Positions 4,223-22,784 of a DNA stretch of 38,616 bases are shown in pieces. Source of the DNA: an uncultured Ignavibacteriota bacterium. GTDB lineage: Bacteria; Bacteroidota; Ignavibacteria; UBA10030; UBA8401. How positions within the stretch are numbered: position 1 is the stretch's first letter; each line of letters opens with the position of its first letter. Position numbers and translations under genes: made by a program. The stretch is taken from contig CAJBTU010000078.1 of assembly GCA_903958625.1 (NCBI GenBank), positions 1 through 38,616 on the forward strand, in the 5' to 3' direction. The notes below the pieces were generated by a model. That model did not search any database. It saw only the letters and a list, made by a program, of their open reading frames with translations, and had not been told where the DNA came from.

Positions 4223-4359
4223 ATGGTTCTCCGGAATGGTACATCATCATCACAGTTCATTTGTGAAGAAACATAACTATTCAATTTCTTTTATGCAACA
4301 GGGATTGTCTCCGCGCCAATTACATATTGAAAAATGCTCAATGTTTTTATTGAAACGCC

Positions 4360-4396
4360 TGTTAATTAACATACCGGCAACCGTTCTTATCTTGTA
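4360..4396 (+). promoter_or_regulatory. Conserved 37-nt operator/promoter block, copy A
   Basis: The block starts with the palindrome TGTTAATTAACA and ends with GTTCTTATCTTGTA. It matches the block at 12921-12957 at 34 of 37 positions. The closing CTTG can serve as a -33 element, with TATTTTG at 4416-4422 as -7 after a 21-nt gap. The palindrome would then sit upstream of -33, where an activator binds. It precedes the ATG at 4479 and lies between the divergent regulator and its probable target. The repetition is directly visible; the regulatory role is inferred. Confidence 0.6.
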
Positions 4397-4478: not shown

Positions 4479-7400
4479 ATGAAACGCATTTCTACAGTTG
4501 TCTTTATGATCGTTTGTTTTGGATTACTCACCATGAGTGCGTGGGGACAGTCTACTGTATTTTATGATAGTTTTAATCGTGCGGCTCTCTCTCCCGGCGG
4601 TGCACCGGCTATGACGTATAATACGCCGGTAAACACAAGCAATACCGGAGTGCCGATTATTGAATCTGCCAGTGCAACCGGTACAGTCCCATATTTTAAA
4701 CTTGTAACATATCTCAGCGCCGCAACAACGGCAGGTCAAAGTTATATGACGGGACCTTTGGCTTCGTTTTCAAGTCAATACAAACCGACTCTGTCATCCA
4801 ATACGGGCGTTGTTACGTGGTCGTTCAATATCCGTGAAAACCAAGGGACGATGAGCGGTCTCTTAAATACTCAACGGTACATCGGAGTAGTTCTGGCGGC
4901 TAGCGAGGCAGATCTCTTAAGTGCGACATGCCAGGGGTATATGATATCCCAGGGTGCAACAACAACAAGCGGACTTCAATTAGTAAAGTTTAGTGCCGGT
5001 CTCGGAAATGCCGCCACACCAACAACGATCATTTCTGCACCAACAGTGACTTCCGCTAAAGACTGGTTTAGTGTAAAAGTAACATATGAACCTTCTACCA
5101 ATACCTGGACGTTGTACCAAAGAACAGATGCGCTTAGCGCTACAATCGGATGGGCTGATCCATCAATCGGTACATTTACCTCGGTAAGCACACCAACAGT
5201 AGATGCTGATTATGTCGGTACACCAATGAGTGTATTTGGTTTCTTTGGAAATCATCCTGCAAGCAATACCGCGTTCAACTGTTTGTTTGATAATTTCAGA
5301 GTTCAGGTAAATGTGCCCGTGACCTGGACAACGGGTTGGCCGAAAGTTGAAAATACAACGCCGACCGGATTTACTGCAAAGGCAAAAACTGATGTTGCCG
5401 GTACGGCATACTATGTCGTTCTGCCGAGCGGCGCAACTGCTCCAACTTCGGCCCAGATAAAAGCCGGACAAAATGCCGCCGGAACAGCAGTAGCCGCAAA
5501 TGAAAAAGGTTCAATAGTCTGTGCTGATGCAATGGTGGAGTACTCTTCCGCCGTGACCGGTCTTTTAGGCACAACGACCTATAATGTTTATTTTGCTTCA
5601 GAAGATGCTGCGGGACAGAATTTACAGGATACTCCCGTAAAGGTTTCTGCAACAACAACAGCCAGTGCCACCGCGCCTCTCATTAATGAACCAACGGTAA
5701 GCGGAATAACAAACAATTCGTCTGTACTCGGGGGTAATATCACTTCGGATGGAGGAAGTTCTCTCACCGAACGAGGAACGGTATGGAAAATTTCAACCGG
5801 TGTAACAATTGCAGATAACAAATTAGCCGAAGGGAGTACTGGTACCGGCGTTTTCACTCACAGCCGTTCATCTCTGCCGGTCAAAACACAGATCTACTAT
5901 AAAGCGTATGCATCCAATGTTATTGGAACAACATTATCTTCCGAAGGAAATTTCTTCACGCTTGCCGATGAACCAATAAACCAGGTAACAAATTTTTCTG
6001 CTAACTCAACATCAAGCACATCTATTGATCTTTCTTGGAGTGCCGCAGCGGGTGCAGACGGCTATATTATTCTGCAGAAGAAAGGCAGCGCGGTTGCCCC
6101 CACCGGAACACCTGTTGATGCCAATGTATATCCTGTCGGCAGCTCTCTCGGCAATGGATTTGTCTCTGCATATATAACCTCCGGTTCTGGTACGTCTAAA
6201 ACTATAACCGGTCTTTTGCCGACTTCTATCTATGCTTTTATCATCATGGCGTATAACTCTGACGGAGTTAACTATCAAACGTATAACTACTTGTCAACAT
6301 TGGCCCCCACTGCTTCAGATACAACACTCGCACCATTGGCTCCAGGAATTCTTCTTGGCAAAACGACGGTCAATTTTGGGAACGTGAAAATTTCCGATAA
6401 AAAAACCGATACAATCTCAGTAACGAACAATGGGACCGATACACTCCGGGTATCAAGTATAAACGCATCGAACAGTATCTTCAGTATTTCGGATACCATG
6501 TTTAATTTGCGGCCATCCGGTGTTAAGTCTCTGGTTGTTTCATTTACGGCAAAGGATACCGGAACGATGGCCGGAAAATTTATCATCTCGCATAATGCAG
6601 GCACAGGGAAAGACACCATTCAGGTAACGGCATTCGGCGTATCGGTTAAAATATCGCTCGAAAAATTGGCAATGAATTTTGGCGGGATGGCAGTGGCTGC
6701 GCAGAAAAAAGACAGCGTTGTGGTCACCAACAGAGGAACAGCTGCCCTAACGGTTGATTCAGTGAAATCCGACAACGTGATGTTCACAGTTACTCCTGCC
6801 AATAGCGTTATTGCACCGTCCGGAACAGCAAAGTTCTACGTTACCTTCAGTCCCACAAGCGCCGGTGCTAAGACCGCCAACATTTTATTTTATAATAATT
6901 CACCAACAGTGAAAGATACTGTCAAAGTAAGCGGAACTGGCGTAGCCGGCGCATTCTATACTGAGGACTTTACCTCGTCGGCCAGTACGGCATTAACATC
7001 AGCCGGATGGACCATTAGTGGAACGTCTGTCGTCAGTCCTATTACGATCACCGCTCCGGGATTATCGATAGGGAAGTATTCCGGTTCGGGCGTAGGCAAT
7101 GCGGCAACGCTCACCACCACCGGTCAGGATGTATTCGCCGGTTTCCCGTCCATCAATGCGGGAACAGTGTATCTTTCGTTTATGATGAATGTTGCAAGCG
7201 CAGGAACAGGTGATTATTTCATAGCACTATCACCGGCTTCATCGCAGACCAACTATTATGCACGTTTGCATATTAAGACATCGGGAACAGGATATGTTCT
7301 TGGCATCAGCAAGAGCAACGAGGTATCCGGAGGAGCTCAGTATGGCACTACCGTATTGAGTTTTAACAATACCGCGCTTGTCGTAGTGAAGTACACATTT

Positions 7401-8077: not shown

Positions 8078-8983
8078 ATGGTAATCATTCGGTACGCAAC
8101 GGTCATGTGTTTGTTATTCAGTATAACATCTGCACAACCATCACATCGTCCATTGAGTTCTCCTCTCTATGGACAAGTGAACGTTGAGAGTGATATTCTC
8201 TATGGACAAAGCATTGGCGTCAATGATTCCATCGTCAACCTACTCCTTGATGTTTATACCGGTACGGGAGATACGGCACAACAGCGTCCTTTAGTATTAT
8301 TTATCCACGGCGGCGGTTTCAAAAATGGGAACAAGGTTCTTAAGATGAGCAAACTGTTCTGTTCCCGTTTTGCGAAGTGCGGTTTTGTTGCGGCATCCAT
8401 CAACTACCGTCTTTCTCAATCGATACGGTCGAACGATGAATACTTTGCGGCCATGATTCACGCGGTGCAGGATGCAAAAGCAGCAGTGCGGTTCTTTAGA
8501 AAGAATGCCGTCCGGTTTATGATTGATACGTCAAAAATATTTGTCATGGGTACATCGGCTGGTGCAATCACCGCACTGCATATGGCCTATCTTGATCAGA
8601 ATGAATTTCCGACATCGGTCGACGTGAAAAAGACCGGTACCCTTGAAGGAAACAGCGGGAACCCGGGATACTCATCCGCTATTCACGGCGTTATTAATTG
8701 CTGGGGTGCAATGGCGGATTTTCGCTGGATTCAAAATGGAAATGTGCCGGTCTTTAATATCCACGGCGTATGTGATTCCACCATTGCGTTCGATTCTTCC
8801 TTCTCGTATAAGGCATTCAAATACGGCAGTACAGTTATTCATGACCGCGCATTGAAAGTGGGAGTCAAATCAGGATTACGACTGTTTTATCAAACCGGAC
8901 ACACATTGGATAATGATCCGGTCAAACAGGACAGCGCGGCAAATGATATTACAGATTGGCTTTCAAAGATTATTCAAAACTGA
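8078..8983 (+). CDS. Secreted alpha/beta-hydrolase esterase (BD-FAE/carbohydrate-esterase-like)
   Basis: 301 aa with a short signal peptide ending near SAQPSH. The alpha/beta-hydrolase fold is shown by the oxyanion motif HGGGF (residues 77-81), the nucleophile elbow GTSAG with Ser160, a plausible acid Asp233 (HGVCDST) and His275 (QTGHTLDND). Family members remove acetyl or feruloyl groups from plant polysaccharides. About 300 residues is normal for a single catalytic domain. It is clearly paralogous to the C-terminal domain of the protein at 19644, sharing AGAITALHMAYLD versus AGSITALHIAYLD and GHTLDND. It has no sorting domain, so it is probably periplasmic or secreted by another route. No SD is visible before the chosen ATG; M10 is an alternative start. 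Confidence 0.8.
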   Translation: MVIIRYATVMCLLFSITSAQPSHRPLSSPLYGQVNVESDILYGQSIGVNDSIVNLLLDVYTGTGDTAQQRPLVLFIHGGGFKNGNKVLKMSKLFCSRFAKCGFVAASINYRLSQSIRSNDEYFAAMIHAVQDAKAAVRFFRKNAVRFMIDTSKIFVMGTSAGAITALHMAYLDQNEFPTSVDVKKTGTLEGNSGNPGYSSAIHGVINCWGAMADFRWIQNGNVPVFNIHGVCDSTIAFDSSFSYKAFKYGSTVIHDRALKVGVKSGLRLFYQTGHTLDNDPVKQDSAANDITDWLSKIIQN

Positions 8984-10512: not shown

Positions 10513-12891
10513 ATGAACAAATTAATATTCATCCTTCTTTTTCTCTTTGCTGCGGTCTCTGTTGCCCAAAAAAATATTCCTGCAGGAAATCCGATCTACC
10601 ATGAGGGATGGAACGATCTCAACAAGAACGGGAAAATGGACCCTTATGAGAATTCCAAACTTCCTGTTGAACAGCGGATCAAAAACCTGCTGAGCTTGAT
10701 GACGCTGAATGAAAAGACAAATCAAATGGCAACACTGTACGGTTACGGCAGGGTATTGAAAGATGAACTGCCGACCGCAGGGTGGAAGAATGAAATATGG
10801 AAAGACGGCATCGCAAATATAGACGAACATCTGAATGGACTTGACAGACCGAATACAAAAACTGAATATTCATGGCCGCCGTCAAAACATGCCGGAGCCA
10901 TCAATGAAACTCAACGGTTCTTTATTGAAGAAACCCGTCTCGGCATTCCGGTTGATTTTTCAAACGAGGGGAACAGAGGATTGTGTCAACATGGTGCAAC
11001 AGCGTTCCCTTCACAGCTTGGCGTTGGCGCAACATGGGATGTCGATCTTGTTGCTCGCATTGGTGCAATTACCGGCAAGGAAGCAAAGATTCTTGGCTAT
11101 AGTAATGTGTATTCCCCTATTCTGGATCTTGCGCGCGATCCCCGGTGGGGCAGAGTGGTGGAATGTTATGGAGAAGATCCTTTTCATATTTCGCGATTAG
11201 GGGTTGCGCAGGTTAAAGGAATTCAGGAGCAGCATGTTGCGGCGACCGTGAAGCACTTTGCCGTTTACAGTGTTCCCAAAGGCGGACGGGACGGCGAGGC
11301 CCGCACCGATCCTCATGTTGCCCCGCGCGAAGTTGAGACCATGTATCTTGCACCATTCAAAGCGGCGTTTGTTGAAGCGAAGGCGCTCGGAACCATGAGT
11401 TCCTATAATGATTATGACGGCGTTCCAATTACCGGCAGCAGCGATTTTTTGATCAAAAAATTGAGGAAAGAATGGGGGTTTAACGGCTATGTGGTTTCGG
11501 ACAGCAAGGCGGTTGAATATCTTTATACAAAACACCATGTTGCGAAAGATCAAAAAGATGCCGTTCGTCAGTCGGTACAAGCCGGTCTGAATGTTCGGAC
11601 CGAATTCACCCCTCCGGATGATTTCATCCTTCCGCTGCGGGAATTGGTGAAGGAAGGTACTATTCCTCAAAAGATGCTGGATGAACGTGTTGCCGATGTC
11701 CTGCGTGTAAAATTTCTTTTAGGGTTATTTGATCAACCCTATGTTCAGCATCCGGAACTTGCCGATACAATAGTTGGATCAGCAGAGAATCAAAAAGTAT
11801 CGCTGGAAGCATCGCGCAAATCGATCGTGTTGCTGAAGAATGCCGGTCAGATCTTACCGCTGAAAAAAAACATCCGTTCAATTCTGGTCACCGGACCGAA
11901 TGCTGCCGCAACAAAATCATCTGTGAGTCGATATGGCCCGAACAGAATTGATGTCGTTTCGATTCTTGAAGGGTTGAAGCGTAAAGCAGGTGATTCAACA
12001 CAAATTAAATATACAAAAGGGTGCGAGCTTGTTGATGCGAACTGGCCGCAGAGCGAAATACTTCCATCACCGATGTCCGTTGAAGAAAAAGAGGAAATCG
12101 AAAAAGCTAAAGCATTGGCAAAGACGGTTGATGCGGCGATTGTTGTTGTCGGCGACGATGAACGGATCGTGGGCGAATCAAAATCGAGAACAAGTCTTGA
12201 TCTTCCCGGTTATCAGCTCGATCTGGTAAAAGCAATCTACGAAACCGGCGTGCCGACGATTGTTGTTTTAATCAATGGCCGTCCGATGACCATTAACTGG
12301 ATAGATAAATATGTTCCGGCTATCGTTGAAGCGTGGTTCCCAGGAAAATGGGGAGGCGATGCAGTAGCCGATGTTCTCTTCGGTGATTATAATCCGGGTG
12401 GAAAACTTCCCATCACATTTCCAAAAACCGTTGGTCAGGTGCCGTTAAATTTTCCCTATAAGCCGGGATCCGACATCGGTGATCCGACGTCGGTCTGTGA
12501 TGTGCTATATCCTTTTGGTTTTGGATTGAGCTATACGGAGTTTAAATATTCAAATCTTTCCATTACACCGTTAAAGCATTTGATGGACGGGAATGTTGAA
12601 GTTTCGTGTGATATCGAAAACACGGGGAGCATGGATGGCGAAGAAGTTGCACAATTGTACGTTCATGATGAAACAAGCAGCGTTACGACGTACGTGAAAA
12701 ATCTGCGCGGATTTCAGCGGATATTCGTACCGAAAGGGAAGAAAACACACGTCCGTTTCGTTCTTTCTCCTGCAGATTTTTCGCTACTGGACCGGAACAA
12801 TACCGTTGTTGTAGAGCCCGGTCTGTTTACGGTAATGATCGGAAGTTCTTCTGTGGACATACGGCTTACGGAAAAATTCATGCTAAAATAG
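10513..12891 (+). CDS. Secreted GH3 beta-glycosidase
   Basis: 792 aa with signal peptide (MNKLIFILLFLFAAVSVAQ). The family 3 layout is complete: an N-terminal TIM barrel with LARDPRWGRVVECYGEDP, the substrate-binding KHFA and the nucleophile Asp330 in GYVVSDSKAVEYL, then an alpha/beta sandwich (KSIVLLKNAGQILPL to DLPGYQ) and a C-terminal fibronectin-III-like domain (PFGFGLSYTEF to VMIGSS). An EF-hand-like loop, DLNKNGKMDPYE (residues 35-46), lies near the N-terminus and probably binds calcium. GH3 enzymes release terminal beta-glucose, xylose or related sugars from oligosaccharides. It likely works in the periplasm on fragments taken up by the TonB receptor. Exact specificity is unknown. Confidence 0.9.
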   Translation: MNKLIFILLFLFAAVSVAQKNIPAGNPIYHEGWNDLNKNGKMDPYENSKLPVEQRIKNLLSLMTLNEKTNQMATLYGYGRVLKDELPTAGWKNEIWKDGIANIDEHLNGLDRPNTKTEYSWPPSKHAGAINETQRFFIEETRLGIPVDFSNEGNRGLCQHGATAFPSQLGVGATWDVDLVARIGAITGKEAKILGYSNVYSPILDLARDPRWGRVVECYGEDPFHISRLGVAQVKGIQEQHVAATVKHFAVYSVPKGGRDGEARTDPHVAPREVETMYLAPFKAAFVEAKALGTMSSYNDYDGVPITGSSDFLIKKLRKEWGFNGYVVSDSKAVEYLYTKHHVAKDQKDAVRQSVQAGLNVRTEFTPPDDFILPLRELVKEGTIPQKMLDERVADVLRVKFLLGLFDQPYVQHPELADTIVGSAENQKVSLEASRKSIVLLKNAGQILPLKKNIRSILVTGPNAAATKSSVSRYGPNRIDVVSILEGLKRKAGDSTQIKYTKGCELVDANWPQSEILPSPMSVEEKEEIEKAKALAKTVDAAIVVVGDDERIVGESKSRTSLDLPGYQLDLVKAIYETGVPTIVVLINGRPMTINWIDKYVPAIVEAWFPGKWGGDAVADVLFGDYNPGGKLPITFPKTVGQVPLNFPYKPGSDIGDPTSVCDVLYPFGFGLSYTEFKYSNLSITPLKHLMDGNVEVSCDIENTGSMDGEEVAQLYVHDETSSVTTYVKNLRGFQRIFVPKGKKTHVRFVLSPADFSLLDRNNTVVVEPGLFTVMIGSSSVDIRLTEKFMLK

Positions 12892-12920
12892 GCAAAAAAC
12901 AGGCTTTTTAAGCAATTACA

Positions 12921-12957
12921 TGTTAATTAACGTTCCTGCAACCGTTCTTATCTTGTA
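12921..12957 (+). promoter_or_regulatory. Conserved 37-nt operator/promoter block, copy B
   Basis: The same block as at 4360-4396: TGTTAATTAAC, three variable bases, CC, then GCAACCGTTCTTATCTTGTA. It differs from copy A at only three positions. It ends in the -33-like CTTG and starts 30 bases after the GH3 stop codon, so the TonB receptor cluster seems to have its own promoter under the same control as the protein at 4479. Confidence 0.6.
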
Positions 12958-12983
12958 TTACAGCATTAACAGAATTATTTTAG
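12952..12983 (+). promoter_or_regulatory. Putative -33/-7 promoter for the TonB receptor cluster
   Basis: CTTG (12952-12955), a 20-nt gap and TATTTTAG (12976-12983) mirror the promoter at 4391-4422. It lies 22 bases before the ATG at 13006. The fit to TTTG / TAnnTTTG is approximate. Confidence 0.4.
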
Positions 12984-13005
12984 TTTAGAAAATTATCGGG
13001 TAATT

Positions 13006-16000
13006 ATGTATTCGAGACATCTGAAAAATCTCACATCAATGTCATTCCGAGGAGTGAAGCGACGAGGAATCTCAATCTTCTACTCAAATAGAAGAACAAG
13101 ATTCTTCGCTTGCCCCTTCGGGGCTTCGCTCAGAATGACAATGGACAACCTATTTTTCAGATGTCACTATTCAGATATTTGGAAAGCCAAAATATCTCCA
13201 AAGAATGCCGTATTCTTCCTTCTTTTGCTGTCGAATTTTCTTTGCGGATTTCTTCTCGCTGAAAACGCAGGTAAAATTTCCGGTACAATTAAAGATAAAA
13301 CGAACAGCGAACCGCTTGTCGGTGCGACAGTCGTTCTGAAAGGAACAAAACTTGGTGGCATCACTGACGTTGCCGGTGATTATTATATTTTAAATGTCCC
13401 CCCCGGTACGTACAATGTCACAGCATCGATCGTCGGGTATGGAAAAGTAACACAAACGGAGGTTCTGGTACGGATCGATCAGACAACAACACTCAATTTC
13501 CGGCTGGCGGAAGAGGTTGTTGAGGCAGAGGGCGTTACCATTGTTGCAGAAAAACCGAAGGTTGAACTCGATCTCACCGCAAGTAAAGCAACCGTATCAC
13601 GCGAAGAGATCTCGAACGGATGGGTGAAGGATATCAAAGATGTTATCACCGACCAATCATCAACAAATATCAATGGAGGCATTCGCGGAAGTTTCGGCGG
13701 CGATGTTTCATATCGTGTGGACGGCCTCGATCTTCGTGATGTTGGTTCGAACACCAATTTTTCTTCGGTGAATCTATCCACCGTTCAGGCGATCGAAGTT
13801 TTGACGGGAGGATGGAACGCCGAATACGGACAGGCGAACGGCGCGATCGTTAATATTGTTTCACGAAAAGCGACCGACAAGATCCATGCCGTTGCAACGT
13901 ATAAGTCGAGGCCTTCCGGTAAATATCATTGGGGAAGAAACATCTACGATAAGAATGATGTGTTCCATACCGTGATGGCAACACCGGAATTTTGGGATAC
14001 ATCAAAAACGTGGCGGACGCAGTGGATGGCTCCGGGTGAATCGCAAAAGGGGAATCTCGGAGACGGAAAATTTGCAAAAATGACTCCGCAGGAAAAGGCG
14101 GACTGGTGGAAGAATTTCATCAATGACAGCAAACGGTTCCCGCAATTCGATTATGCCGACAGAGCGGAATGGGAACAGGAAGTAACGATCTATGGTCCAA
14201 TTCTGCCCGAACTGAATTTTTTGGTTTCCGGCCGGTATAAAGAAGGAGTTGGTATTTATCCCTCCGCATTAAAGTACAATCCCGACATGACATTACAGGG
14301 ATCACTAGACTGGTCGCCGGTAAGTACAACAATGGTCAGTTTCAACGGCATGTTCACAAAATTCGAAAATTCCGGCGCTCCCAGGACCAATTATCAATCA
14401 TCCGAAACGATTGTTGCCGACAACGCGTCTCAAACGTTGCCGTTCATTGACGATCCGTATAACAAATATAAATTTTGGTTTTATGGACCGTCGAATAACG
14501 GCGGAAGTTTCGGCGACGGCAGCACGATCCGGGCCCCCGAACGCGCTCAACTGATGAATGTCCAAGCAAAGCTTACGCAGGTTTTTACTCCCGAAACATT
14601 TCTGAACATGGCCTTCCAGCATAGCCAGATGCAATACAATCTTGATTTTCGTGATATTGCGCAGACAGCACAATTTGCTGCGTTTGGATTTCCTTCACCG
14701 ACGGATTCCGTTCTTTCGTACGGCGTATGGCTGACCTCATTCGGGAAACCGCCGACTTCGAATTTGTTCGACTCCCAACGGTGGGGATATGCCGGAGATA
14801 TTTGGAGGAGTGAATCGAGAACGAAGAATTACAGCGTCAAGGCAGATCTTACAAGTCAGATCACCAAAGCGCATCTGGTGAAATCAGGTTTTATCTTTTC
14901 TTTGCAGGAGATAAAGACATTCATTCACGAAGGAAATATTCAATCGGCCCCCTACGTGCAGGTGAACGACATTATTCCGATCGTCGATCATCCGTACGAA
15001 GGTGCCGGATACATTCAGGATAAAATTGAGGTCGGCGGGATGGTGCTGAATGCCGGTATCCGTTTCGACTTCTTCAATGCGAATAAAAATGTTGCGGCAG
15101 ATTTCTACGATCCGTTGATGATCTCGGAATACACACTTGGAAATTCGGGAAAGACCGGACTGATCGGATACCGTCCGGGCGGAAGCGGTGCGGCGTATGT
15201 AAAAACTCCCACACGATATGCATTCTCACCCCGCATCGGAATTTCACATCCCATCACTGAAACAACGGTGCTGCACTTCATGTTTGGAATTTTCAATCAG
15301 CGTCCGTCATGGGTAAAGATGCTTTCCAATCCTGTTGTCTGGACGGATAACAGGGCCAGCGGAAATCTTGATGACCTGATCAAAGCGAACAAACTTAACT
15401 CGGACCTTGGTCTTCCCGATACGCTCCTGGTAACGTACCGGTATCTTGGCGCGAAAGTCGGGAACCCTTCGTTAACATGGGAAAAAATGACGCAGTATGA
15501 GGTTGGTATCGTGCAGAATATTGAGGATCTCGTGATGATTGAAGCAACAATGTATTACAAAGAGGGAAAAGATCTTACCTCTCTTGGAATAGATCAGGGT
15601 CCGGCTACTGGTGAGATAAAACAATCGGGCGGCAATGTAGATGTCCGTTTATATGGAGACCCGTTCCAGGCGGACAACAGAGATCCCGGCAAGTATATCG
15701 GGAACTTCACGACCACAGTGAACGGAGCCTGGGCAGATGTTCGCGGTATCGAAATGAAAATGAAATCACAATTCCGCTGGATCAATGTTGAACTTGCCTA
15801 TACGCTTTCCTATTTGGCCACCGGCCGGTATCACGACAGTAAATTATTCAAACTATCCTCTCTCACAGGAAAACAACTGGCCGACAATGTTTTTGCCGGT
15901 GCAAATAATACTGATGGCGGCGGTATCGGCGTGAATGATATGTTGTGGAATCCGAGTAATTCCGGAATGATAAAGCTTACGATGAACAGCCCGGAAGATT

Positions 16001-16398
16001 TTGGCCCATCCATTATGGAATTTTATCCGTTTGGAAGCTGGGTGGTCAGTTCCTCCACCCGATGGGTGCGGGGCAATGAATTTACTTGGTATCCCACCGA
16101 TTTTCAGGATATCAAACTTCCGAATAACAGACGGTGGGAAGACCGTTGGAATACCAATATGAATATCAGCAAAAATATTCATCTCGCCGACAATATTTCA
16201 TTCAAATTGTTTATTCAGGTAACGAATCTATTCAACGAAAAACATCTTGTTCAATTCAGCGAAGGTTCAACATCACTGAATAATTATATGGCAAATAATA
16301 TTCTTCCGTTCCAATCAACAACAAAGGAGCCGACGGAATGGAATTGGTACACTAATAATCCGCGGCAGATATATTTTGGTACAACGGTCGAATTTTAA
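13006..16398 (+). CDS. TonB-dependent outer-membrane receptor with carboxypeptidase-regulatory-like domain
   Basis: 1130 aa as an ORF. Residues ~69-88 are the signal-peptide core (AVFFLLLLSNFLCGFLLA). Then come a CarboxypepD_reg-like beta-sandwich (GKISGTIKDKTNSEPLVGATVV), a plug domain (VSREEISNGWVKDIKDVI, YRVDGLDLRD, IEVLTGGWNAEYGQANGAIVNIV) and a large beta-barrel ending in FGTTVEF. It should import poly- or oligosaccharide fragments using TonB energy. The first ~55 codons are unusual: codons 4-56 are created by a 154-bp mobile element plus duplicated target. Removing it gives MYSDIWKAKISPKNAV running straight into the signal peptide, so 13006 was probably the ancestral start. Today translation may begin at 13006, or at ATG 13135 or 13141. 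No SusD follows; the neighbours are a secreted partner and a PorV-like protein. Confidence 0.85.
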   Translation: MYSRHLKNLTSMSFRGVKRRGISIFYSNRRTRFFACPFGASLRMTMDNLFFRCHYSDIWKAKISPKNAVFFLLLLSNFLCGFLLAENAGKISGTIKDKTNSEPLVGATVVLKGTKLGGITDVAGDYYILNVPPGTYNVTASIVGYGKVTQTEVLVRIDQTTTLNFRLAEEVVEAEGVTIVAEKPKVELDLTASKATVSREEISNGWVKDIKDVITDQSSTNINGGIRGSFGGDVSYRVDGLDLRDVGSNTNFSSVNLSTVQAIEVLTGGWNAEYGQANGAIVNIVSRKATDKIHAVATYKSRPSGKYHWGRNIYDKNDVFHTVMATPEFWDTSKTWRTQWMAPGESQKGNLGDGKFAKMTPQEKADWWKNFINDSKRFPQFDYADRAEWEQEVTIYGPILPELNFLVSGRYKEGVGIYPSALKYNPDMTLQGSLDWSPVSTTMVSFNGMFTKFENSGAPRTNYQSSETIVADNASQTLPFIDDPYNKYKFWFYGPSNNGGSFGDGSTIRAPERAQLMNVQAKLTQVFTPETFLNMAFQHSQMQYNLDFRDIAQTAQFAAFGFPSPTDSVLSYGVWLTSFGKPPTSNLFDSQRWGYAGDIWRSESRTKNYSVKADLTSQITKAHLVKSGFIFSLQEIKTFIHEGNIQSAPYVQVNDIIPIVDHPYEGAGYIQDKIEVGGMVLNAGIRFDFFNANKNVAADFYDPLMISEYTLGNSGKTGLIGYRPGGSGAAYVKTPTRYAFSPRIGISHPITETTVLHFMFGIFNQRPSWVKMLSNPVVWTDNRASGNLDDLIKANKLNSDLGLPDTLLVTYRYLGAKVGNPSLTWEKMTQYEVGIVQNIEDLVMIEATMYYKEGKDLTSLGIDQGPATGEIKQSGGNVDVRLYGDPFQADNRDPGKYIGNFTTTVNGAWADVRGIEMKMKSQFRWINVELAYTLSYLATGRYHDSKLFKLSSLTGKQLADNVFAGANNTDGGGIGVNDMLWNPSNSGMIKLTMNSPEDFGPSIMEFYPFGSWVVSSSTRWVRGNEFTWYPTDFQDIKLPNNRRWEDRWNTNMNISKNIHLADNISFKLFIQVTNLFNEKHLVQFSEGSTSLNNYMANNILPFQSTTKEPTEWNWYTNNPRQIYFGTTVEF
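13014..13167. mobile_element. 154-bp MITE-like palindromic element with 5-bp target duplication
   Basis: The ends are inverted repeats: GAGACATCTGAAAAAT at 13014-13029 and ATTTTTCAGATGTCAC at 13152-13167, matching at all but one pair. Inside lies a second inverted pair, GTCATTCCGAG and CTCAGAATGAC, plus GAGGAATCT and AGATTCTTCGC. The whole can fold into one long hairpin. It is flanked by direct repeats TATTC at 13009-13013 and 13168-13172. The inner core resembles a palindromic repeat common in intergenic regions of many environmental bacteria. Insertion adds 159 bases (53 codons) without a stop. It encodes no transposase and would need one supplied in trans. Confidence 0.8.
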
Positions 16399-19643: not shown

Positions 19644-22600
19644 ATGAAGAGTTATTTTCAGAGCATTCTTTTTGTTCTCATTTTTTCTTTCTCCGCACCA
19701 TTACTGCATGGGCAGATAATGATACAGGAAGATTTCAATTATACTGCGGGTACCGATCTTGTCACCAACGGATGGTCGAAAGCAGCACTCGTTTGGAATC
19801 CGGTCACCGTCGTATCACCCGGCCTTACGTACCAGGGATATATCGGTGCAGGCGTAGGGAACGCGGCATTGTTAATGGACTATACCGAACGGTATTCAAA
19901 ATCCATTACGGTCCCAACAGCCGGAGATCTTTATGCAGCATTTATGGTCAGGGTTGACACTGCAACTTCCTCGGGCGGTTACGTTGTCTGTTTTTATTCA
20001 AACAATGCGGCACGCGGCAGATTTTGGATCAAAAATGACGGATCCGGGAATTTGAAATTCGGTTTAAGCGGAAAAAGTGCATCGGCTCCCGTTACGTATG
20101 AAGCAACAAATTATCTTTTCAAAACAACATATCTGGTGGTGTTAAAATATTCGATCGTTGTAGGAACAACGAACGATTTATATTCGCTGATCGTCAATCC
20201 ATTGCCCGGGAAAGCGGAGCCGGTTGCAAATATTTTGCCGTTTACCGATACTGGAAGTGATCTTGGGGCAAATACTTCCGGTGCAAGTCTTTCCATTCAA
20301 GGACGGGACAGCCTGGGAACGGGTGCCGTGTTTGTTGTAGATGGAATACGCGTTGGAACTGCCTGGACTTCGGTCGTTCCGCCGCCGCCGTTCTATTATA
20401 AAGGAACCGGCGCTGTTGATGATCCGAATAGTTGGGGTGACAACACCAACGGGTCGGGGAACCATCCGGTTGATTTTGGCGTGGACAACCAGTTATATCT
20501 ATTAACGAATACAACATCAGTAACTCTTTCGTCACCCTGGGTGGTATCGGGTGCTGGTTCAAAAGTTATTGTTGCCGGCGGAACTGCGCTGACCGTTGCA
20601 ACGGGCGGAGTTCTTTCTGCCACCATAGATGTAGCATCCGGCGGAGTGCTCAATTTAACCAGCGCCGATTTCCTTCCGGTATTCGGTACGAACGGCGGCA
20701 CAGTAAACTTCGATAATGCTGCCGGTATCACTCTTACCCAGGATGTGGTTCTGCCAACCAGTTCCGGTTATTATGTACTGGCAAATGGAAACCTTAATGT
20801 TGGTACATATAAACTTTCTGTCAAAGGAAGACTGCGAACCAATAATTTTAAAGTCCTTGGCAGCGGAACTTTTGCATTGGATTCCGCAGGCACCTTAGCG
20901 GTCTCTTCACCCGATGGAATCGTTGCCAGCGGATCAACCGGTGATATACAAACAACGGGCAGATCATTCTCCCGGTACGCAAACTATATCTACTCCGGTA
21001 CAGCCAATCAAACGACGGGCAATGCAATTCCGGATACCGTTGCAAACATAACAGTAGCAATGAACAATCGTAATTTGACAACAACACTGTCCAAACCGAT
21101 TGTTGTTACCGGTAACCTTACAATGACAAGCGGAAAATATAAATTAGGGAATTTTAATCTTGTCTTCTCCAATCCGAGCGGACAATCAGATACATCGTAC
21201 GTTATCACCGACGGTACCGGTGCTTTGATCAGAACAACGGCGAACACAGGACGAAAAACGATGCCGATCGGCTCGGCTCTTGAATATCGCCCGGCAGTAT
21301 TCATTTTTGAATCAACACCGACCGGTATGCGCAATATCGCATTCCGTTACATTACCGGAGATACGGGGTCGGTCGGCTTTCCCGTGAATATCTTTTATCG
21401 TTACAAAGGGGGATATTGGAATGTTGCAAGCGACAGCGCAAGTAATCCAGTTTACCGGTTAGATATAATTTCGCCGAATGGATTTGCCGATCCGTCCACA
21501 CGGAGGATCATCTATCGCGCAAGCAATACGGTGAAGTGGGATACTATAGCGAACGTACTCAATACATTTTATGCGGATACGGTGACGCAGGGGGGCATCG
21601 ATAAGTTTGGTCAGTTTGCCATCGGAATCGGAACTCCTCAATCGCCGACAACGGGAAAACGGTATGAAAGCGAAGTATTCACTTCATTCCAAATTCAGTC
21701 TGCGATTCCGTATGGTACGGATGTCAAACAAACGCTGGATCTTTATACCGGCACAAGCGACAGCCGCACAGATCGTCCGCTGGTAGTGTTTATTCCCGGC
21801 GGCGGATTTAAAGCGGTGAATGCGCCCGGCGGATTCAGTAATATTCTCGGCGGCGGGTTGGCAAAACGTGGATATGTTGTCGCGAACATCAATTACTATC
21901 GCACGGCTTCCAGTCAGCCCACGGATTCTTCCTCATTCGAAATAATGCTAAAAGCACAGCAGGATGTAAAAGCGGCGATACGGTTCCTGAGAAAAAATGG
22001 AACATCGTACGGTATTGATACGTCGCAAATTTTTCTTACCGGCAGTTCTGCCGGTTCCATTACCGCTCTCCATATAGCATATCTGGATTCTGCAGAAGTG
22101 CCGGGCAAGTATGTCAACTGGAGCAACATTGGAGGTACCTTTGACGGACCGGATCGCGGAACACCCGGAATTTCCACACGCGTTTCCGGAGTCATCTCGA
22201 ACTGGGGAGCGATTGGTGATACTGCCTGGATGAAGAACAGCAAAGTGCCGGTGTATTGTGTTCACGGCCTGGCAGATTCGACCGTGTTTTATGATTCCAT
22301 TCCTGCCGATGGTCCATTCCGGTATTCCAGCAAATATATTTACGCGACTACTCAGAGACTGGGTATCACCAGCGGATTAAAAACGTTTGTTAACACTGGT
22401 CATACGCTGGATAATGATGCGGCCAAACAGGACGACGCCTATAAATCTTCAAGCACCTGGCTTTTGACGCTTCTCAAACCCAGTACGCTTGGTGTTCAGA
22501 ATGAACAAAGGATAGTTCCGACGTCGATCAGTCTGCTGAACAATTATCCGAATCCGTTCAATCCTTCAACAACAATACGGTATCAGCTTCCATCGATGAT

Positions 22601-22784
22601 GCACATAAGAGTCAGCGTATATAATATCATCGGACAAGAAGTCGCAACATTAGTGAATGAAATAAAGGATGCAGGAGAATATTCTGTTACGTTTGATGCA
22701 TCGAGACTTGCTTCGGGTTTGTATCTGTATCAACTGAAAGCCGGTTCGTTCGTTCAAACAAAGAAAATGTTGCTTCTAAAGTAA
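19644..22784 (+). CDS. Type IX-sorted fusion of surface modules and an alpha/beta-hydrolase esterase
   Basis: 1046 aa with strong SD (AAGGAGGT) and signal peptide ending LLHGQ. Residues ~27-240 are a jelly-roll-like module (QEDFNYTAG to VDGIRVGTAW), similar to one in the protein at 4479. Residues ~250-660 are Gly/Thr-rich beta repeats of autotransporter-like character. Residues ~670-955 are an esterase domain with nucleophile Ser802 (GSSAG), Asp878 (HGLADST) and His920 (TGHTLDND). Its oxyanion motif reads PGGGF instead of the usual HGGGF. A sorting domain begins near 966 (NNYPNPFNPST) and ends KKMLLLK. The esterase domain is paralogous to 8078-8983. It probably deacylates a polysaccharide at the cell surface. 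Confidence 0.8.
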   Translation: MKSYFQSILFVLIFSFSAPLLHGQIMIQEDFNYTAGTDLVTNGWSKAALVWNPVTVVSPGLTYQGYIGAGVGNAALLMDYTERYSKSITVPTAGDLYAAFMVRVDTATSSGGYVVCFYSNNAARGRFWIKNDGSGNLKFGLSGKSASAPVTYEATNYLFKTTYLVVLKYSIVVGTTNDLYSLIVNPLPGKAEPVANILPFTDTGSDLGANTSGASLSIQGRDSLGTGAVFVVDGIRVGTAWTSVVPPPPFYYKGTGAVDDPNSWGDNTNGSGNHPVDFGVDNQLYLLTNTTSVTLSSPWVVSGAGSKVIVAGGTALTVATGGVLSATIDVASGGVLNLTSADFLPVFGTNGGTVNFDNAAGITLTQDVVLPTSSGYYVLANGNLNVGTYKLSVKGRLRTNNFKVLGSGTFALDSAGTLAVSSPDGIVASGSTGDIQTTGRSFSRYANYIYSGTANQTTGNAIPDTVANITVAMNNRNLTTTLSKPIVVTGNLTMTSGKYKLGNFNLVFSNPSGQSDTSYVITDGTGALIRTTANTGRKTMPIGSALEYRPAVFIFESTPTGMRNIAFRYITGDTGSVGFPVNIFYRYKGGYWNVASDSASNPVYRLDIISPNGFADPSTRRIIYRASNTVKWDTIANVLNTFYADTVTQGGIDKFGQFAIGIGTPQSPTTGKRYESEVFTSFQIQSAIPYGTDVKQTLDLYTGTSDSRTDRPLVVFIPGGGFKAVNAPGGFSNILGGGLAKRGYVVANINYYRTASSQPTDSSSFEIMLKAQQDVKAAIRFLRKNGTSYGIDTSQIFLTGSSAGSITALHIAYLDSAEVPGKYVNWSNIGGTFDGPDRGTPGISTRVSGVISNWGAIGDTAWMKNSKVPVYCVHGLADSTVFYDSIPADGPFRYSSKYIYATTQRLGITSGLKTFVNTGHTLDNDAAKQDDAYKSSSTWLLTLLKPSTLGVQNEQRIVPTSISLLNNYPNPFNPSTTIRYQLPSMMHIRVSVYNIIGQEVATLVNEIKDAGEYSVTFDASRLASGLYLYQLKAGSFVQTKKMLLLK

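Follow-up and report, generated by a model that had tools for sequence, protein, structure and literature searches.

The Rickettsia palindromic elements (RPE), of ~105–150 bp, lie in frame within protein genes and leave the frame open (PMC10969869, PMC2229807). They are reported from conserved protein genes in general, and whether they duplicate their target is given as uncertain (PMC2229807). In enterobacteria, the MITEs YPAL/RU-2 and ERIC/RU-1 have open frames that are fused to genes, and in one such case, YPO1552, a predicted signal peptide is formed in part by RU-2 (PMC2229807, PMC2759123). Finally, RUP of Streptococcus pneumoniae, an intergenic MITE with stops in all frames, is linked to the insertion sequence (IS) IS630-Spn1 by shared terminal inverted repeats (TIRs) (PMC2229807).

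Here we describe a MITE from an uncultured Ignavibacteriota bacterium, found in a window of 38,616 nucleotides (the whole stretch of DNA that was analysed). It is like RPE in its way of working, that is, in being a palindromic, in-frame, open insertion, a likeness drawn from description and across different host orders. Unlike RPE, its family has a clear 5-bp target duplication and a related IS5 element, is nearly absent from gene interiors, and has in-gene cases that all precede signal peptides. While the enterobacterial element forms a part of a putative protein's signal sequence, the window family enters the n-region of existing signals, for which element-free orthologues were found. As with RUP, MITE and autonomous IS are connected via shared TIRs, but the transposase is of another family. 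In-frame MITE fusions are already known; the signal-peptide bias appears to be new, and our search of the open-licence literature found no description of the window MITE family or of an n-region bias.

A MITE two codons past a receptor start codon

The features of the window that bear on the insertion are as follows.

12900-13013, + strand: receptor leader, presumed promoter and 5'UTR, intact and 100% identical to genome G004
13006-16398, + strand: TonB-dependent receptor ORF (CarboxypepD_reg and Plug), 1130 aa, of which 53 come from the insertion
13006-13008, + strand: native receptor start codon ATG, common to the element-free orthologue
13009-13013, + strand: target-site duplication copy 1, TATTC (single TATTC in the G004 empty site)
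13014-13167, + strand: MITE, 154 bp, non-autonomous, with IS5-like ends (from empty site, copies and ends)
13014-13029, + strand: left TIR, GAGACATCTGAAAAAT (same ends on ~100 copies)
13039-13041, + strand: in-frame ATG in the element, alternative start
13135-13137, + strand: in-frame ATG in the element, alternative start
13141-13143, + strand: in-frame ATG in the element, alternative start, the most accessible internal one
13152-13167, - strand: right TIR, GTGACATCTGAAAAAT (read 13167-13152)
13168-13172, + strand: target-site duplication copy 2, TATTC, a perfect match to copy 1
13207-13263, + strand: native signal-peptide hydrophobic core, AVFFLLLLSNFLCGFLLA (from sequence reading and hydrophobicity)

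An earlier note, made from the letters of this DNA, had claimed a 154-bp element with 16-bp inverted ends and flanking TATTC duplications. This structure is borne out: the TIRs are identical at 15 of their 16 positions, the TATTC duplication is perfect, and the element sits two codons past the native ATG of the receptor. We took as MITEs elements of < ~600 bp without a transposase gene; the window element, well within this limit, contains neither a transposase gene nor a gene of its own, and to its size are added TIRs, a duplication with its empty site, multiple copies and an autonomous partner in the order. The predicted fold of its RNA has a free energy of -65.2 kcal/mol (z = -7.0). Element plus one TATTC make up 159 bp, or 53 codons, and our reading of the ORF agreed with the note that this insertion is a multiple of three and stop-free, there being no stop between the ATG at 13006 and the terminal stop at 16398.

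The note had also proposed that excision of the element and one TATTC would restore a start codon running through TATTC into a signal peptide. This empty site, ATG-TATTC-AGATATTTGG, is present exactly in G004, a genome of the same genus (L032), where the DNA ATGTATTCAGATATTTGG, translated MYSDIWKDKISSKNAVFF, equals the window sequence minus the element and one TATTC. The G004 receptor orthologue shares 98% protein identity from residue 53 onward. Comparison with an element-free relative had been set beforehand as a test able to refute the insertion; the nearest orthologue is element-free and has kept the empty site, which rules out conserved coding DNA as the identity of the inserted sequence. 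We therefore regard the window element as a confirmed, recently inserted MITE.

Copies of the element family and a related IS

The window's own genome, G000 (an assembly of 426 contigs), gave 71 blast matches to the window element. The 14-bp core of its ends (≤ 1 mismatch) matched this genome 57 times, against once for a reversed-pattern control, so that a chance origin of the ends is excluded and the other copies anticipated by the note are abundant. Across the order, exact ends were found in 21 of 98 genomes, with none for the reversed control, and 40 of 104 copies are flanked by exact 5-bp duplications where 1.07 would be expected from re-paired flanks; other duplication lengths among these 104 copies were near background. 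Target sites of the family are AT-rich. The ends are constant and the interiors vary between genera. In L141–L165, MITEs of different genera have common 16-bp ends and differing inner hairpins, the latter often variants of GTCATTCTGAGCGAAGCGAAGAATC or GTCATGGTGAGC..., and a literature search with the inner repeat sequence gave no match.

Through a transposase fragment that adjoins one of these ends in G027, we located complete elements in two genomes of the order.

L200:517-1749, genome G065: full IS, 1233 bp, duplication TTTAA, ends GAGACCTCTGAAAAAC / GAGACATCTGAAAAAC
L201:321-1505, genome G056: full IS, 1185 bp, duplication AAATT, ends GAGACTTCTGAAGAAT / GAGACTTCTGAAAAAT

The two transposases match NCBIfam NF033581 (transpos_IS5_4) with 261 and 252 bits (cut-off 140), carry PF01609 and PF05598, and qualify as DDE transposases of the IS5 group; these relatives differ from the window MITE in having a transposase together with the matching ends. 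G027 provides a third, incomplete instance (L235), whose end GAGACTTCTGAAAAAT lies directly before the transposase start. The earlier expectation of an autonomous transposase with the same ends thus holds for the order, where the intact IS5-family element occurs in two genomes, but not for G000 itself, whose assembly contains no relatives of the IS5-type transposase at E ≤ 1e-15. The most likely mobiliser of the window MITE is an IS5-family transposase acting in trans on GWGACNTCTGAAAAAY-like ends. To our knowledge, 5 bp is not among the duplication sizes of the classical IS5 subgroups.

Other candidate mobilisers were set aside. The PF01609 and PF13751 transposases of the genus lie at loci with other ends, and of an intact IS in the metagenome-assembled genome G054 the ends alone are assembled. 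Eleven contig ends of G054 (L147, L159, L167, L171, L174, L176) break just inside this IS end, which suggests that the assembly lost roughly this number of flanks of an intact, multi-copy IS; a scan of the collection for the G054 end matched nothing beyond contigs of G054 itself.

Insertions just past start codons

Copies were taken from G000, G003, G004, G005, G017 and others, their empty sites were rebuilt by script, and the 78 copies with a good 5-bp duplication formed our recurrence sample. We counted an insertion as post-start if it had an ATG before it and coding sequence behind it, and if no other plausible start lay closer. Six of the 78 are of this kind, three in G000 (the window copy, L006 and L018) and three in G005 (L246, L255 and L258); the five besides the window copy are listed here.

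L006, genome G000: MSRPFF^VLIFFSFSHFAFPQS, in frame, open
L018, genome G000: MIRNYLL^FCFAVVLLLFNAC, in frame, open
L246, genome G005: MMKTL^LLSRKIIFLILLLIGGC, in frame, open
L255, genome G005: MKKYII^LVLITLLFSDVMSAQ, in frame, open
L258, genome G005: MLRKKWLFDY^QSIFLLTLFSLPLYSQ, in frame, open

All six lie ≤ 10 codons from the ATG, are in frame and stop-free, add 52–65 codons, and precede a hydrophobic, signal-peptide-like stretch (Kyte-Doolittle maxima 1.9–3.2); two of the six genes are lipoprotein-like. No out-of-frame insertion just past a start codon occurs among the 78 duplication-supported copies. Under a null built from every other copy in both orientations, the chance of an in-frame, open insertion is ~0.10 per site, and the product for the six is 1.4e-6, a value that assumes independence, with L001 and L006 carrying related elements and all six cases coming from two genomes of one genus. 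The lengths of all 78 copies fall into the three frame classes as 32/28/18, only a mild bias. Five of the six genes have element-free orthologues whose starts correspond: the receptor in G004; the gene at L006 in G004, G003, G001 and G007; that at L018 in G002 and G004; that at L255 in G001, G010 and G012; and that at L258 in G003 and G001.

No further in-frame cases were found at the G003, G004 and G017 loci, and we found no copies clearly within a gene body, L261, 16 codons ahead of a stop codon, being borderline. Seven loci considered as intragenic (L004, L016, L022, L108, L254, L283 and L291) have a plausible start downstream and were counted as upstream insertions. At L101:1496-1646 (G005), flanking AT and a G of the element form a new ATG directly before signal-peptide-like sequence; this copy was left uncounted because its duplication is poor. 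At the other end of genes, seven of the 78 copies (L008, L028, L045, L096, L243, L252 and L287) lie at, or one codon ahead of, a stop codon, and some of their duplications include TAA, so that the stop would be duplicated too.

Proposed translation and export of the extended receptor

We think it probable, if well short of certain, that the MITE is translated as an n-region extension and removed with the signal peptide. A trans-acting IS5-family transposase would have inserted it, creating the AT-rich 5-bp duplication, just behind the native start of the receptor gene. Because the insertion is 159 bp long and open in one frame, ribosomes from the native ATG could translate through it, and the signal-peptide n-region would gain 53 residues. 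The hydrophobic core now lies at about residues 68–86, as against 15–33 without the insertion, and the resulting 67-residue stretch before it is far above the usual n-region length, which speaks against this reading. With core and cleavage region untouched, the extra peptide would be lost when the signal peptide is cleaved off, leaving the mature receptor unaltered. We infer that the extended precursor is translated from the native ATG, exported and cleaved, and that the insertion is near-neutral. The leader matches its G004 counterpart at every position, while the flanking genes match at 80–95% over most of their length, and promoter, 5'UTR and start codon should therefore be unaffected by the insertion.

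The earlier note had left two outcomes side by side, a hairpin over the start region or a supply of new ATGs, and both are structurally possible. In the filled allele the hairpin starts 8 nt after the A of the native ATG, and opening the initiation region is predicted to cost 17.9 kcal/mol in this filled window copy, up from 10.3 kcal/mol when empty, so that receptor translation may be strongly reduced. Were the native ATG disabled altogether, translation could start from the element's ATG at 13135 or 13141, to produce MTMDNLFFRCHYSDIWK..., whose signal peptide would be moderately longer; the note had named these two, both of which are in frame, and a third in-frame ATG lies at 13039. Such a relocation seems to us unlikely. 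The predicted opening cost in the filled allele is only 8.6 kcal/mol at 13141, as against the 17.9 kcal/mol of the native ATG, and an ATG lies close to the element's 3' end in L006, L246 and L255 as well. However, the elements at L018 and L258 contain no in-frame ATG, yet they are in frame with the native start, an argument that their in-frame TTG codons weaken; and a relocated start would need no open frame back to the native ATG, a frame that is nonetheless open in all six genes. A third outcome, read-through from the native ATG, has better support from the comparison of copies, since every one of the six insertions keeps an open frame with the start and two offer no internal ATG.

The same very stable hairpin and higher predicted opening cost could instead mean that the receptor is silenced or strongly reduced, its open frame being coincidental or irrelevant, and for the receptor alone a very recent silencing would look identical. 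We nonetheless consider this quite improbable: the receptor and the five other genes with comparably placed insertions all keep an unbroken frame, and the 1130-aa ORF is otherwise undamaged behind the leader that it shares with G004. It is more doubtful still that hairpin or added peptide has been retained for useful control of exported proteins, whether as an RNA-level switch or through delayed export, a role we hold to be very improbable. In-gene recurrence is confined to exported-protein genes, but each checked insertion occurs in one genome and is missing from relatives, and AT-rich target preference together with tolerance is the simpler account. Lastly, G000 is fragmented and breaks at such repeats, as it might if the insertion were an assembly artefact (or conserved coding sequence) instead of mobile DNA; against the exact empty site, the perfect duplication and the many duplication-bearing copies, this is barely credible.

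If the extension is indeed discarded at cleavage, n-regions would be a tolerated landing place. AT-rich target preference and purifying selection would then let in-frame, open copies persist in n-regions while gene interiors stay free. Within the genus, such insertions recur in five or more further genes for exported proteins, a pattern suggesting that mobile hairpin DNA can land safely at the front end of an export signal. More tentatively, n-regions might be a general bacterial safe harbour, in which open-frame IS5-type MITEs repeatedly add ~50–65 residues that are discarded at cleavage. If true, transposons can persist inside genes without changing the mature protein, and this would show where within bacterial genes small transposons can live. 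The insertions would also be natural cases of Sec-type signals and lipoproteins with very long n-regions, start-site annotation of MITE-extended genes would be unreliable, and the filled and empty allele pairs between sister species offer testable material.

Two further observations concern the surroundings of the receptor gene. A 53-nt part of its leader recurs with 81% identity at 4344-4396, upstream of an ORF at 4479, and the repeated part contains TGCAACCGTT, which we take to resemble a LacI-type operator. The neighbourhood (8078-8983, 10513-12891 and 19644-22784) holds BD-FAE-type esterase domains, a GH3 glycosidase and a Por secretion tail protein, and given these neighbours the receptor may be part of a glycan-use locus.
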